This document shows positions 16,787-49,160 of a stretch of DNA of 64,000 nucleotides, one piece after another. Position 1 is the stretch's first letter; every line of letters begins with the position of its first letter. The translations under genes were made by a program, and so were the position numbers. Source of the DNA: Apus apus (taxonomy: Eukaryota; Chordata; Aves; Apodiformes; Apodidae); NCBI RefSeq assembly GCF_020740795.1, contig NC_067295.1, forward strand, positions 558,001 through 622,000, in the 5' to 3' direction. The notes under the pieces were generated by a model, which saw only the letters and a list, made by a program, of their open reading frames with translations, was not told where the DNA came from and made no database searches.

Positions 16787-19700
16787 ATGAACCTGAGGAA
16801 GTACCTCATCCGGGCGCTGCACCGCCTGCAGAAGGGCCCTGGCTACACCTACAAGGAGCTGCTGGTCTGGTACTGTGACAACACCAACACCCACGGCCCG
16901 AAGCGCATCATCAAAGAGGGGCCGAAGAAGAAACTGATCTGGTTCTTCCTAACGCTGCTCTTCGCGTCGCTGGTCTTCTGGCAGTGGGGCATCCTCATCA
17001 ACACCTACCTCTCCTATAACGTCACCTCCTCTCTCTCCATTGGCTTTAAGACCATGAAGTTCCCAGCAGTCACAGTCTGCAACGCCAACCCCTTCAAGTA
17101 AGTTTCCCTTTGCCTGATGTACCCCGTGGTGCACCAAGGCCTCGGCTCTGTGCCCAGCCTAAGGTGCTGCAGGTCGTTCCCACCTCAGTGCCACGTTAGG
17201 AGCATGGATGGAAATGATCCCTTGACTCACCAAGTGGCACAAAAAACCCAAGGAGAACCACACAAAAGGGAATGGCTCAGGTCCGGGGGGGGTGCATGGA
17301 CCTCGGTGTCCTCACGGATCAGTTAATCTAACGACAGGGGTTGCCTCCCTGCAAACTTTCTCAGGGAAAACATGAAGTTCAACTAATTTGTCACAACTAG
17401 AATTGGTCTCCTGATCTTTCCCACAATCCCTTCCTCTCCATGAAGGCCCCACTTATAGCTCACATTCCCAGCAGTAAGAGCTGGTCAAACAGCAGCATCA
17501 GCTGGAGCTGCAGTGACACCACTCCATCCTTATTTCAAAGCAGTTCCAAGTTGGGTTTGGTAGAGTTGTTTTAAATTTCTATCCATGCAATAGTGTAGCC
17601 CAAGGCCAGATGCTCTCAACTGATACACAGGAGTGATTTTGAGGTTGTTTTTCTCTGCTGGTTAGAGATGTTTTGTGTAACTCTAGTGAGTTACGGAAGC
17701 CCAGCCAGTTTGGTTCTGCACTGGCAGGTTCACCACCACAGGGTGTGTTTATCCTCCCAGGCTGCTGGGATGCCCGTGTCCCAGCTGGCTGGGCCTGCAC
17801 AGAGGTTCCCATCCTCCAGTAAATTTTCAGCCAACGATCCAAGGTCCCCAGGAAGATCAAAGCCTGTGGAGCTGCAGACAAGCTGCTCCATGTCCCCACA
17901 TCTTCACAGCACCTGGCAACTGCTCCTTGTCCTGCAGATACTCAGAGGTGAAGCATCTGCTGAAAGAGCTGGACAGGCTGATCGAAGCAGCACTGGAGAG
18001 GATCCTGCAGCCCACGCCAGGGAACAGCAGTGAGAAGAGCTCAACCCCACCACTCGATCTGGAGCTCTGGCACCAGATACCCCTGGTCCTCATTGATGAG
18101 CACGACAAAGACAACCCCGTCATCCTGGACATCTTTGAGAGCAACCAGGCTGCTAACCAAACCTCCATGGGCAATCAGACCTCCATGAGCAATGAAACAG
18201 CTGGTGGAAACCAAACTGCTGTGGGCAACCAGACTTCCATGGGCAATGAAACAGCTGATGGTAACCAAACTGCTGTGGGCAACCAGACCTCCATGGGCAA
18301 TGAAACAGCCCCAGGCAACATCATGTCAGAAGAAAAGAAGTACAAGTTGGCAGTGAAGCTGGTGAGTGAGGTCCCAGGAGAGGCAGCGGGGAGGGATGAG
18401 GCCGGGGCACCAGGCAGGGAGGCTGCAGCCTGGAGATCCCAGTCTGCTCCCACCAGCTGCCCCCAGCCACTCTGCCTCGGGGCTCTGGTTCCCTCAGTTC
18501 AGGGCATGCAGTCCATGGGCACTTTCCAAGTGTTATTCCGAGGCTCCAGGGCTGGTTGCTTGTGCTTTTGAGGAAAGCAACATAGAAATATTTTAAGATA
18601 TTTGTAAAATTTCAGAAGGAGCCTGATCCCCTGCAGGGTACACAGCCAGACACCTGGCTGGAGCTGCTGGAACTCCACACGTGGGGCCTGTAGCAGGATG
18701 ATACCCTCCATATACACAGGGTCAATATGCACAGGGTCACACCTGCTCTCTGTCCCCAGTGCAGCCACCAGGGCTCCGACAACTGCACCTACAGGAACTT
18801 CACCAGCGCGGCGCAGGCGGTGACCGAGTGGTACATCCTGCAGTCCACCAGCATCCTCTCCAAAGTCCCTCTGCAGGAGAGGATCAGGATGGGCTACCAG
18901 GCTGAGGACATGATCCTGGCATGTCTCTATGGGGCTGAACCCTGCAACTACAAGTAGGTGGTGACCGAGCTCCCTGCCCTGTTCTGTTATGCCAGGAAGG
19001 GCACAGGGCACTAAAGACATGCCAGCCTTTTTGTTTTCAGTTAATAAAGAGATTTCTGCAGATCCTTAACTCTAATGTTTCCCAGAGGGGTTCTGGATGT
19101 GATCCTGGCTGCAACAGGTTATTCTGGGACAGAGAGGGGTTGAGCTTTAGTTCTGGATGGGCCGTATTGCTCATGATGTATGGAGACTTAACAGCACCCA
19201 TGGGACCTTCCCAGGGTGTGCAGTGATAACCAGGTGCTGAGGCAGCAGTGCAGCCCCCAACCACAGCCCCCCTCCTTTTACATAAGGCATGAGAAATGCA
19301 TTTTAGCTGTAATTGTTTCTCATTAACACCAAATTTCTTTCATTTTTGAGAACTGTGAGTGTGCTGCAGCAGCCTGGCTGCAAGGAGTTCTGCCCCTTCT
19401 GCCAAGGGGGCAACAAGAGTAATTACCCAAGAATGAGCTGTAACACCAGCCAAAGCTGTCACCATAGCTCAGATCAAGCAATGATTTCTCTCATCTGTGT
19501 GACAGATCACTCCTTTCCATGCCCACAAAGCATTATCCCTGGTGGTTGGGTCTCCATTCACACCAGTTCCTCACTTTGCTGGGTTTTTCAACAGCAAATT
19601 GATCAAAATTGTATCAGCTGAAATTTCTATCCAGACATTCAACAAATGGAGCAGTTCAAAGTGAACCTGGATGCAGCTGCCAAGCACTGGCACCACCAGA

Positions 19701-22700
19701 TGTATTATTTTATAACCCATTAGTCCCCCCTGAGAGTCACAGTCTTATGTGCTTGATTCTTCCAGGAATTTCACCCAAATCTATCACCCAGACCATGGTA
19801 ACTGCTACATCTTTAACTGGGGCATGGATGAAGAGGCTTTGAATTCTTCCAACCCCGGAGCTGAGTTTGGTAAGAGTGAGCCCTGCTCAGAGGAAGAGGC
19901 TGAGGGAGCAGCAGTGCTGCCAGTCCCCCTGCCTTGGCCACCTCTGTCACATGTACCAGGGTTATGAACTCTGTGTCTCTGGAGATCTACAGCAGGGAGG
20001 AATGGTTTTCCAGAAGGGGATAAGCCCAGAAAGGGAAACGTGCCACATAGGAACAAGCAGCGTGACTACAGATGTTACACGCAGCTGCAGTGCAACATCT
20101 GGGCAGCCACGGCAATGGCTGGATGTTCCCATCTGGTGCCTTCACCATGGTGGTACAGATACACCTAAGGCTGCTGGGACAGCCAGACCTGGCCCTTCCC
20201 CAGGGAACAGAGGCTTCTGTGCACAGCCACCAGAAAACTCACTCAGTGTTTTTTCCAAAGCCTCACATTTTGATGCAATTCTTGATCTCGGTGTCTGGTG
20301 TCCCAGGGCTGAAGTTAATCCTGGACATCAGCCAGCAAGACTACATCCCTTACCTGTCCTCAGCTGCCGGGGCCCGGCTCATGCTGCACCAGCAGAAGAG
20401 CTTCCCCTTCCTCAAGGATCAGGGCATCTACGCCATGGCCGGGACAGAAACCTCCATCGGAGTGCTGGTGGTATGTGTGGCATTCCTCTAGAGCAGATTG
20501 TCTGAGCATAATGTTATCTGATGGGACTGCAACCAAGTCTGTTTTAAGTCTTGGCTGAACTGGCTCAAACCAAAAGAGTCAAGCTACACTCTGGCTGTGG
20601 CCCGAACCATTTATGGAGGATTTTATGTAACTGTCCTGGCAAAGCGCTTTACTGAAGCCAAAATACTGAGCTCAGGTTATTGTTCCCTCTTCCTTCAGCA
20701 TGTCAGGGGGTGCCTTGCTAAAACATGCTGCCCTGAACACCCTCCCCTGCCTCCACCCACCCAGGGCAACGCAGCGCCTCTTCCAGCTCTGCCAGGCTTT
20801 GGGGTCTTTTCAAAGCCACCAAGGAACAGAGAAGTTAGTCTCAATAAGTAGGCACTGGGGACCTGGGGAGGAGCAAGGACTCCTGCAGTTTGGTGTTCCC
20901 CTCTTCTTCCAGGATGAACTGGAGCGGATGGGTTACCCATACAGTGACTGCACCATGAATGGCTCCGACGTCCCCGTTAAAAACCTCTACAGCCAGTACA
21001 ACACTTCCTATTCCATACAGGTAAAACATGTTTTTGAATCAAACAAGGCTGTTTAGGAAAAATCATGAGAGCAGTTAAAATCCTTGACCATCCTGCAGGA
21101 TGACTGGCACATCAGCAGTGCTTAAGCAGAAGGCACAAGCTGAACATGGGAACCTTCTTCTCTGGTAATAACCAGCACTCCAGTCTGAACATCCTGTAGC
21201 CCCAGGTTCGGAAATGATCCCAGTGGATCTATTGGAAATGGCTCTGACATTTCGTGCAGGAGCAAGACTTAATGATGCAGGTATTAAAACCTGCATCAAA
21301 AGATAAGGAACATGGCTCCAGGAGTGATTCCTCTCTTGAACACTTTGACTCTTTAATCCTCTTCTCTTTAAGGGAATTCAGTCATTCTTCACCCTCAGAA
21401 TGCCTCCTTGATTTCTGTAGGACATGAAGACAGACCTTGCCTTTCCTTCACTCTTCAATTGGGATGAGCAAGTTGAGCGCTTGTAAACCTTCAATCTGCA
21501 GAAAAATATAGTGTAAAAATTAAGCACTGGTTAATCTGTAACAGGCTATTACATACAGGAGAAGCACTTCTGGAGGGTGAGATCTGGCAATAAAGAAAAC
21601 ATCAAAACTGTTTGGGGGGTTATTTACAAAAGCCTGAAGAATACACCTGGAGGAGTGGGAGGGCTTTGGTCTGCAGGGGTTTTGATATTTCTGCCTTTCT
21701 ATAATTGTAACAATTGGACCACTCCCCCGTACACTTCAGGGTGCTTGTATAATGTTTAAGCAAATACTTAACATTATTGCATTATTACTTTTAAGTTGCT
21801 AAATGCTGACGGGGGTTCTATGTCCACGTAACTGACGTTACTTCAGAGACCTCTCAGCAAAATCAGACTTTTCCATCACCCTGATTACAGTGAACTCTTT
21901 CAGTGTCTTGTGTCCCACAGAAAATCTCTGGTTGTTCTACCTAGCTGGAGCTGTTAAATTTAATTATCTGTTCATAGACTTTGTTACTGCTTTGTGCACT
22001 GTTTCATCCAGAATCCCACTCCAATCTCGGGTGATTAACTTCATGCCTCACTGAGCTAATGGCAGCACTGCAGCCCGGCTCGCTGCTGCTGGAGCTGTGC
22101 TGCAGCCCTTCCAGGGAGAGCAGCAGATGCACAGATAAGATAATTCAGATTTCTAAAACCTGCTCTTTGTGTTGAAGTATTTTTAGAGTCCTGGCTTTAA
22201 AGTGGAAACCAGACCCGTGTCAGTGTGTCCTGTAAAGCCTGGAGACAACAGCAGAGTCCGTGGGTGTAGTGGAACATTTTTAATCCTTTTTGGAAACTCT
22301 GTATGACTCCTGTGAAGCCCTGAATTGTGGGCAGTCCTGGCCAGGGCAGGGTCCAGCAGGGAGGCAGGTGAGAGCTCAGCCTCTCTGAGCAGCTCCTCTT
22401 CCCTTTCCTCAGGCTTGCCTGCGCTCCTGTTTCCAAAACCACATGACTGAGACCTGTGGATGTGGTCATTACATGTTTCCTTTACCTGAAGGGGTCAATT
22501 ACTGCAATAATGAAGACAACCCAGGCTGGGGTAAGCACACAGATGGAGCAAATGGCACAGAAGAGTTTAGAGACAAACTCTCTGATCCTTCGCTGAGTTT
22601 CTCAAGAAGACAGCAAACTTGTGCAGCAGGCTCAGGCTGAAATACTTATTGTATTAAATGAAATTGATAACCACCCAGTACATGGGGTCTTCATCTAACA

Positions 22701-25026
22701 GATGCTTTGGTTTTGTTTTCACCAAACAGCCTATTGCTACTCATCACTGAGATCCAGTATAAGACACAGACAGATTTGCATTGATTCCTGTAAGGAAACA
22801 TGCAAGTAAGTACCCAGGCCCCTTGTGCAGCTGGAAAGGTGGGGGGGACCCTGCATCCCGTCCCCCATCAGTTCTGACCTCCCAAAATGGCAGCAAATCC
22901 TGAGGGGCTGCTGGTCTTCATGAGAACTGAAGTTCCAGTGACTTCAGAAGAGGGGAAACATTTGTACCCATGTTCTCCTTTCCTCTCTCCAGTGACACAC
23001 AGTACAAGATGACCATCTCCATGGCAGACTGGCCATCAGAAGCTTCGGAGGTAGCACCAATTCCTTGTTTTGAAACATTCATTAATAATTACCTGCTCTT
23101 AGCCACATGAATCACTCAGTATTTTCAGAGCTAATGTCCAGGTAGCAAGTGCCTCTTTGCTAAATTACACATTTTCAATGTGCAAACAAACACTAGTGCC
23201 AGGGCATGGGACAGGAGGGGGGACTCCCCCATGGCAACACCTCCTCCCTGGGTCCTGAACCAGGTCCTGCAGCTCTCTTGGGTTCCTGCACTAGCAGGCA
23301 CCCAGAGAGGATGCTTCTGCTCTGTTCTGAATATATGTTGTTTTCCTAGGACTGGATTTTCCATATTCTGTCTTATGAAAGGGATATGTCAGCAAATGTG
23401 ACTTTGGACAGGTAAGTAAAAGGAACAACCACTTTATCTTCTCTGTTGAGCCTGTTAACATCAGATTAACATGAACCTTGGCGATGGGCCAGAGCACATG
23501 TGTGCTAATGCAGAAGGACAGCAAGATTTGGTGCATGTTTGCCTGGAAGATACATAAAGCAAATCTGAAACTCTCTTTGTGCATCTCCTCTGCTTTCCAT
23601 AGTGACAAACTGGGTCACACAAACTCAAACGTCCAGTTCAGTTACAATGACATTAACTGCAACACCTCCAATCAGTCACTGCTGCAGGTTCTGAAGCTCT
23701 GAGCCCCCAGGGTCCAGCTCCTGATTGGAACGTTGGTCCCTTCACACTCTGAATCTGCCAACAGCAGCAGCACAGGGGAATGCACCAAAATGGGGGTAAC
23801 GTGTGAGTTACCCTTGGAGAACCTAAACACTGAATTAGGGGTAAAAGAAGAGGTTTTTTTCCCCCAAGGGAAACGAAGAATCCAGAGAAGCATGACAAGT
23901 TTTTGCAGGTATTGTAACACAGTGGGTCTTGTGGCAGCTGCTCTGTGGGGCAATGGGAACAGGAGCAGGACACCAGAGGGGTGACAGCCCCTCCACACCA
24001 GCCAGGGCCACTGGGAAGAACAACACAAATGGCCCCAAAGAGGCTTCCAGCTGCTCTAGTGCATCTTCAGGAGAAAGTGGAGAACAGTGTCTCCTCCCTG
24101 TGCAGCCAGGGACACGTTTTACCTTCTCCCACAGGCCCAGCCGAGGTTTCAGTGGCCACTGTGAACCCCTTGGCCGGGCTGTGCAGCCCCCTGGGCAGGG
24201 AGGAGTGGAGGGCAGGATGGCCACAGCCTGGCTCTGCACTGAGCTGCTGTTTCTCCCTTGCAGAAACGGGATCATCAAGCTGAACATTTACTTCCAGGAG
24301 TACAACTACCGCACCATCTCAGAGTCTGCTGCCACCACAGTGAGTGCCCATCCCTGCCTCCTGCCCGCAGCCGCAACGCGCAGCGGGCGCTCGCCAAAAC
24401 GAGCCACCCAGACACACAGGCAGGGCTCAGCTCCTCGGGGCTGATCAGCCATGGCTGAGGTGCCTCTCACCTGGCTGCCAGCTCCCTTGGTGCTGCTGCT
24501 GCTGCCTCCCATGGCCAGCAGGGCGCAGGGACAAGGGCCATCAGCAGCGCATGGTGGTTGGTGGGGGCTGACCAGGGTCCAATGCCTCTGCTCACTCTTC
24601 TCCCTGCAGATCGTTTGGCTGCTGTCAAGCCTGGGGGGCCAGTTTGGGTTCTGGATGGGTGGCTCAGTGCTGTGCCTCATCGAGTTTGGGGAAATCATCA
24701 TCGACTCGCTGTGGATCACCATCATTAACGTCATCAGCTGGTGCAAAGGCCTGAAGCAGAAGCGGGCGCAGGCGCGGTATCCCGACGCACCCCCGACAGT
24801 GTCGGAGCTGGTGGAGGCTCACACCAACCTGGGCTTCCAGCACGAGGACACAGGGACCCTCCCCAGGGAGGAGGCGCTGCCCCCCCGAGCCCGGCACCCC
24901 CCCGCCCAACTACGACTCCCTGCGTGTCCAGCCCCTCGACATCCTCAGTCCCGACAGCGACGCAGACCCCGAGTGAGCAGCACAGCCCCCACCACGGCAC
25001 AGCCCTGGGCCAGCTGCCACTGCTGA
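16787..25026 (+). CDS. SCNN1B: Epithelial sodium channel beta subunit
   Basis: Twelve coding exons: 16787-17097, 17938-18361, 18760-18953, 19766-19869, 20307-20470, 20913-21020, 22413-22530, 22730-22805, 22993-23050, 23350-23411, 24264-24339 and 24610-25026. All have AG/GT borders and consistent phase. The product is the beta subunit of the ENaC sodium channel. The N-terminus ([20 protein letters not shown]) carries the His-Gly gating motif (G37); TM1 is at about residues 48-72. The extracellular Cys-rich domain includes [20 protein letters not shown]. Pre-TM2 and filter are [19 protein letters not shown], followed by TM2. Residues 177-230 are a repeat of nine N-X-T sequons (listed separately). 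Read literally, the last exon gives 703 aa and ends at 25026. A seven-C run at 24880-24886 shifts the frame; the +1 frame holds the conserved tail with [10 protein letters not shown] and a stop at 24974-24976, giving about 686 aa. Human beta is about 640 aa. Confidence 0.95.
18155..18316 (+). repeat. SCNN1B: Nine-copy 18-bp coding repeat encoding N-X-T sequons
   Basis: Exactly 162 bp made of nine in-frame 18-bp units, each coding a hexapeptide that starts NQT or [58 protein letters not shown] 54-bp three-unit superperiod is visible ([18 protein letters not shown]). It lies in SCNN1B exon 2 of the coding set, in the extracellular domain after [12 protein letters not shown]. Confidence 0.97.
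24880..24913 (+). other. SCNN1B: C-run frame anomaly and out-of-frame PY motif
   Basis: Seven C at 24880-24886 and seven more at 24897-24903 lie in the last SCNN1B exon. The frame entering from the acceptor at 24610 reads [15 protein letters not shown] here. One base off, the sequence reads [18 protein letters not shown] and ends in DADPE and a stop, closely matching the human beta tail ([17 protein letters not shown]). Six C in the first run would restore that match. Confidence 0.85.
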
Positions 25027-29807: not shown

Positions 29808-48751
<18,944 letters not shown>

Positions 48752-48845
48752 CCCGGCGCCGCGGGCGGGCAGCGCAGGCCGGGCTGCGTGCGGGGAGGCG
48801 GCCCCGGGGCGGAGGAGGGGCCGGGGAGGAGGACGGGAAGGGAGG

Positions 48846-48890
48846 CGGGCCCGGGGAGGGAGGACGGGCCCGGGGAGGGAGGACGGGCCC
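48846..48890. repeat. 19-bp tandem array upstream of COG7
   Basis: The unit CGGGCCCGGGGAGGGAGGA occurs twice in full plus a partial third copy, about 100 bp upstream of the COG7 start codon. Confidence 0.75.
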
Positions 48891-48913
48891 CGGCGCGGCA
48901 GGAGGGGCCGGGC

Positions 48914-48981
48914 CGGGCCGTTTCTCCTCCCGGGCCGTTTCTCCTCCCGGGCCGTTTCTCCTCCCGGGCCGTTTCTCCTCC
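48914..48981. repeat. 17-bp tandem array upstream of COG7
   Basis: The unit CGGGCCGTTTCTCCTCC is repeated four times without mismatch, 160-230 bp upstream of the COG7 start codon, within the CpG island. On the minus strand it reads GGAGGAGAAACGGCCCG. It may lie in the 5' UTR or core promoter. Confidence 0.9.
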
Positions 48982-49160
48982 CGGGCCGCCCCCCAAGCCC
49001 CGCCCCGGTCACTCGCTGCGTTTCGTGCCGTCCCCCACGAGCCGCATCGCGCAGAGCCCGGGCAGCCCCGGTGACAGCGGGGGCAGGTCCCTGGCACAGC
49101 CCCTGCTCTGGCTCCCGGCAGGCACGGCAGGAGAGCTGCTTGTTGGTACCGGTTTGCTTT

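Follow-up and report, generated by a model that had tools for sequence, protein, structure and literature searches.

SCNN1B, the gene for the beta subunit of the epithelial sodium channel (ENaC), was analysed in a 64-kb window of the Apus apus genome (contig NC_067295.1, 558,001 to 622,000; the window is this whole stretch, and the positions below are its own). The gene carries a real and unusual coding minisatellite: at positions 18155–18316 nine units of 18 bp follow each other in frame and with zero indels, and encode 54 residues (177–230) with nine N-X-T sequons. The first-pass annotation of the window had described this array, and both its coordinates and its content of nine sequons proved exact. 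To judge from the sequence, the array is most likely a flexible, N-glycosylated loop of putative function.

Sequence, repeat structure and uniqueness of the array

The N-X-T sequon is kept in all nine units, X is never proline, and the array lies on the extracellular side, between the parts of the human alignment that cover transmembrane segments (TM) 1 and 2. The units form three superunits of 54 bp, which differ pairwise at 9, 11 and 6 of 54 positions. The 54-bp superperiod, already noticed in the first pass, was found by Tandem Repeats Finder (TRF; 18168–18309, period 54, 93% matches) and by a second, independent repeat search (superunits 2 and 3 being 83% and 80% identical to superunit 1). 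The 18-bp periodicity had been called perfect; this holds for the indel-free period and for the encoded N and T, but not for the DNA, in which pairs of 18-mers differ at 0–10 of 18 positions. The spacer residues are variable (S/A, M/V/G/D/P, G/S). When the 54 residues of the array were shuffled 200,000 times, eight sequons were obtained twice and nine never; the densest 54-residue window on either side of the array, within the first 640 residues of the protein, held 1 and 2 sequons.

Because the copies have diverged, the array as a whole is neither a recent burst nor a freshly homogenised satellite. Superunits 2 and 3 show 1 difference in their first 36 bp and 5 in their last 18 bp (two-sided Fisher p 0.013), a pattern suggestive of duplication or conversion within the array at a later time. 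It is plausible that the copy number differs between species. If 2e-9 per site and year is taken as the neutral rate, the superunit distances of 0.12–0.24 would correspond to ∼30–60 million years; a single age was rejected, since the uneven differences between superunits 2 and 3 show that the units are not all equally old, and the calculation ignores conversion. Pfam gave just 2 matches to the array, both below the cut-off (E 0.23 and 0.62), and the array alone matched one chain in the PDB (E 0.077, an RNA polymerase subunit), which was taken as chance.

The genome (1.1 Gb in 110 contigs) was searched for further copies. With the array DNA the single match was the array itself, in a search that skips simple repeats. 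The array peptide gave at least 22 matches, namely itself (E 1.9e-24) and at least 21 others (best E 0.008). Inspection of 7 of these 21 (L020, L021, L022, L024, L025, L027 and L028) showed other compositions and no comparable N-X-T array; one frame of L022 held as many as 6 sequons per 56 residues, and the other six loci at most 3. A repeat common to other loci thus finds no support in the DNA search of the genome or in the 7 peptide matches inspected. A relative on a viral contig was likewise discarded (one 21-residue match in a stop-filled frame, taken as chance). L022 itself (G000:C20:1421742–1421891) is a minisatellite with a 486-codon open frame and GNRSCPG-like repeats, and is probably non-coding. 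No paper on a sequon array in SCNN1B was recognized by title or start of abstract among the matches listed from the open-access literature, outside which most subscription papers lie.

Gene identity and position in the GRIP domain

The window contains the last exons of SCNN1G and, after these, the coding exons of SCNN1B (+ strand). In a HMMER alignment the first 640 residues scored 958 bits with human beta, 441 with gamma, 372 with alpha and 294 with delta, so that beta is the closest human subunit, in agreement with the gene name given at first. The Pfam family ASC (PF00858) matches residues 29–593 over profile positions 1–454 of 455 (E 7e-111), and the human beta alignment is strong on both flanks of the array, both TMs included. 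By these comparisons the gene that carries the array is SCNN1B and encodes an otherwise ordinary subunit. The gene model has 12 coding exons, separated by 11 introns that each have GT-AG ends, and its reading frame runs unbroken from the start codon into the last exon. The features are as follows.

16787..17097, + strand: coding exon 1 (start codon, cytoplasmic N-terminus, TM1); from the start codon, GT donor and human beta alignment.
17938..18361, + strand: coding exon 2, which holds the array (AG acceptor, GT donor); gene model.
18074..18097, + strand: QIPLVLID, residues 150–157, the predicted equivalent of the P1 strand and inhibitory tract; from alignments to human beta and gamma and to same-genome gamma, with P1 according to parts of PMC7413742 and PMC6197857.
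18137..18154, + strand: ESNQAA, residues 171–176, opposite gamma SGQKRK and with no basic residue; same-genome alignment.
18155..18316, + strand: nine-unit N-X-T array, 9 x 18 bp = 3 x 54 bp, residues 177–230; TRF, second repeat search and unit comparison.
18317..18361, + strand: 15 residues of resumed common sequence toward the P3 strand; human and same-genome alignments.
18760..18953, + strand: third coding exon, beginning with the GRIP loop CSHQGSDNC (conserved cysteines 246 and 254); gene model and human alignment.
19766–19869, 20307–20470, 20913–21020 and 22413–22530, + strand: coding exons, each with AG acceptor and GT donor.
22730–22805, 22993–23050, 23350–23411 and 24264–24339, + strand: coding exons, each with AG acceptor and GT donor.
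24610..25026, + strand: last coding exon (TM2, C-terminus), with the stop of the TM2 frame at 25024–25026.

The array exon measures 424 nt, which is not a multiple of three; simple skipping of the exon therefore breaks the frame and was ruled out as an in-frame route to loss of the array.

One feature would fit an assembly error behind the array, or a SCNN1B pseudogene: the PY motif of the C-terminus, an accessory motif typical of the family and given no weight in the assignment of the gene, has lost the frame. PPPNY (24899 onwards) does not lie in the frame of TM2, and its own frame stops at 24974–24976; SCNN1B of the Apus apus assembly thus has no PY motif in frame at its C-terminus. The motif is preceded by a run of seven Cs (24880–24886), and a second C7 run spans 24897–24903. 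The shift reflects either a homopolymer error of the assembly at the C7 run, which would account for the change of frame, or real loss of the motif. In people, loss of the PY motif leads to a Liddle-type gain of function. Chicken beta has PPPNY in a published table (PMC8791634, in part). The regular introns, the open frame and the strong match to human beta around the array and through both TMs all speak against an artefact or a dead gene, and copies that differ at many sites would be unlike a duplication error of assembly. Overall, we regard this explanation as highly improbable.

The alignment with human beta breaks at residues 181–238 (58 residues), where human beta has residues 178–188 (11 residues; HMMER). 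The array is thus extra relative to human beta and falls within GRIP, with VILDIF before it and the CS....C loop after it; both points agree with the original proposal. Measured from the start of the exon up to the leucine that precedes the GRIP cysteine, beta counts 87 residues when the array is removed (141 less 54); the corresponding lengths in the same genome are 85 for alpha, 98 for gamma and 84 for delta. Since beta without the array is similar in length to the other three subunits, the array is a clean insertion. Human beta had no such array, and neither did the corresponding exons of the alpha, gamma and delta genes in this genome. These paralogues were named after their best human chain (gamma 121 bits, alpha 105 bits, delta 57 bits with alpha a close second at 54), and the delta label is the least firm of the three. 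Genes for four ENaC subunits are kept in the genome, among them the delta-like L018 (G000:C21) and alpha (L017, G000:C1). Three sequons (NTS, NLS and NFS) lie in exon 3 of the delta-like gene.

In an alignment of the four subunits, ESNQAA of beta stands opposite SGQKRK of gamma, with the distal cleavage motif, and RQKR of alpha occupies the same slot as QKRK of gamma, within a few columns. In the human ENaC structure the inhibitory tracts are on P1, and the second protease site is likely on the C-terminal side of P2 (PMC6197857, in part). This placement puts the array outside the inhibitory tract. By alignment the array lies in the GRIP P2-P3 linker, just past the tract, at the slot of the gamma/alpha distal cleavage motif. 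The earlier assignment to the area of the alpha and gamma inhibitory tracts therefore stands for the GRIP region but needs to be moved past the tract itself, to the slot of QKRK and RQKR.

The cysteine pair of human beta ICNAHGC has no counterpart in beta of the window. Human beta has an additional GRIP disulfide loop near the beta-gamma interface (PMC6197857, in part), and the ICNAHGC cysteines presumably form this disulfide. The residues after the array (GNIMSEEKK) resemble SNVMHIESK of human gamma, so that, in place of a replacement of the human beta-specific loop by the array, the human loop may be the derived state.

Basic cleavage motifs were compared among the subunits. In the same genome, KVRR and QKRK are present in gamma, and RSSR and RQKR in alpha. 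The motif search gave zero matches in delta and zero in SCNN1B beta, and it also misses QKRK of gamma. In residues 105–260 of beta adjacent basic residues occur only as KK 237–238, after the array; beta thus lacks the two basic motifs that flank the inhibitory tract in alpha and gamma. For chicken, a published table (PMC8791634, in part) gives KVRR and RKRK in gamma, RTSR and RQKR in alpha and none in beta; the same source states that mammalian beta is not processed like alpha and gamma. According to PMC6197857 (in part) beta is not known to gate by proteolysis, and its GRIP domain is called surprising. On the sequence evidence, the usual alpha and gamma cleavage motifs are retained alongside the array-bearing beta. 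Given that gating by proteolysis is not known for beta, and that alpha and gamma keep their motifs, an effect of the array on the cleavage of beta itself is unlikely. Of the altered proteolytic activation initially suggested, the part that concerns beta's own cleavage is unlikely (also by PMC8791634, in part), whereas shielding of the neighbouring gamma is possible, as is a glycan tether.

Selection, tolerance and candidate steric roles

A glycan-bearing beta loop with some selected steric role has about even chances of being the right reading of the array. In the proposed course of events, an in-frame coding minisatellite would have arisen in the GRIP P2-P3 loop of beta ENaC, probably in a bird lineage, and would have lengthened a subunit normal in other respects by 54 residues with nine predicted N-glycosylation sites. 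The array would be translated as a flexible, extracellular loop, and the oligosaccharyltransferase of the endoplasmic reticulum would modify many of the sites, giving a bulky cluster of glycans at the channel rim adjoining the gamma subunit. The effect of such a cluster would be steric: it could keep proteases off the rim and the gamma cleavage region beside it, increase stability during folding or at the cell surface, or anchor the channel to the matrix in the way described for alpha glycans. N-X-T is the sequon type favoured by the oligosaccharyltransferase (PMC4750078, in part). Two further reports support the selected role, although the cited papers deal with other subunits or species than the array-bearing beta: human beta has the most predicted N-glycan sites among the subunits (11; PMC6197857, in part), and delta ENaC with added N-glycan motifs shows a raised shear response (PMC7958617, in part). 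The array had been called mucin-like or heavily N-glycosylated; the second term agrees with the predicted N-X-T sequons, whereas mucin-like is loose, O-glycans being still possible.

Selection on the sequons was assessed from the unit trees, with the caveat that trees of the array repeats are uncertain. The shortest trees found require 20 changes; all 4 or 5 changes in N and T codons fall at the third position, while in the other array codons 8 of 16 or 8 of 15 fall at the first or second position. In a neutral simulation 20 random changes were placed on 30 unit trees of the shortest type and stop-free runs were counted. All nine sequons survived in 112 of 37,611, 139 of 35,389 and 127 of 32,150 stop-free runs (∼0.003–0.004), which suggests, and does not prove, selection for the sequons.

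Several points weigh against this reading. The contrast between codon positions is weak, with a one-sided Fisher p of 0.05 or 0.10 according to the tree used. The array was selected for study for its intact sequons, and conversion between repeats, which is outside the simulation, could also keep them alike. The cotranslational enzyme is reported to skip NXS sites that stand close together (PMC4750078, in part), and at a spacing of six residues occupancy may be partial. A single-sequence fold of the array exon was of low confidence (mean predicted local distance difference test score, pLDDT, 50.6), and flexibility is not established by it.

Neutral tolerance is the rival reading. Here slippage would have expanded a minisatellite in a loop that is permissive and poorly conserved; each copied unit would bring its sequon along, the sequons would be glycosylated to some degree, and selection would be blind to them. 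The varying spacer residues and the marginal codon contrast are both as expected for such a loop, but nine intact sequons occurred in just ∼0.3–0.4% of the simulations with 20 changes, a figure subject to the ascertainment mentioned above. Tolerance is a serious possibility, somewhat short of probable, and selection for at least some of the glycans is slightly ahead of mere tolerance.

The selected role can be narrowed to particular forms. In one, the glycans would cover the gamma GRIP domain and slow cleavage at the distal site, leaving more channels uncleaved and protease-activatable. The array sits in the beta slot of the QKRK and RQKR distal motifs of gamma and alpha of the same genome, this gamma retains both KVRR and QKRK, and the additional human beta loop lies near the beta-gamma interface. 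The geometry, however, is borrowed from the human ENaC structure, and reduced cleavage is a prediction; we consider this form unlikely. In another form, the glycans would bind the channel to the matrix and raise its shear response. A glycan motif at site 487 of delta, with a shear response that was lost after matrix degradation (PMC7958617, in part), argues for such a tether, but the delta sites mimic positions in the palm and knuckle of alpha rather than the beta GRIP linker, and the tether appears a little more doubtful still.

Related systems and significance

Two further tandem repeats were noted in the window. At 43845–43987 a 36-bp repeat (97% matches, 3.8 copies, 18-bp sub-period) has several open frames on both strands; the minus-strand frames around it resemble COG7. 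A GC-rich cluster of tandem repeats with periods of 17 to 47 bp lies at 48790–48988 and includes one 17-bp array with 100% matches.

The closest known system is the GRIP domain of human beta ENaC, which is encoded by the same gene and has the same domain order, with TM1, finger, the GRIP cysteine pair, palm and TM2 conserved. Human beta has the ICNAHGC cysteine pair and no sequon array, whereas Apus apus beta shows the reverse. The loop with the distal cleavage site of gamma and alpha occupies the same slot of the fold as the beta array, after the inhibitory tract and before P3, but is filled with basic cleavage motifs instead of sequons. Mucin-type repeats and other coding minisatellites similarly multiply glycosylation sites by tandem coding repeats, possibly in variable number. 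Mucin-type repeats are rich in S/T and carry O-glycans; the beta array is of the N-X-T type, short, and placed inside the extracellular domain of a channel.

The array is a clean case of a coding minisatellite that multiplies glycosylation sites. Salt balance depends centrally on the activation of ENaC by cleavage of GRIP domains, and a naturally occurring beta with nine sequons in this domain provides a ready-made test of the role of the GRIP loop and of the effect of glycans on cleavage, surface stability and mechanosensing. A bolder idea, to which we give little weight, is that the slot used for proteolysis in alpha and gamma has been turned in beta into a repeat-encoded glycan module, whose copy number tunes shielding and the response to proteases or shear. 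If true, the copy number of the glycan module would be a length-tunable regulatory dial for salt uptake.
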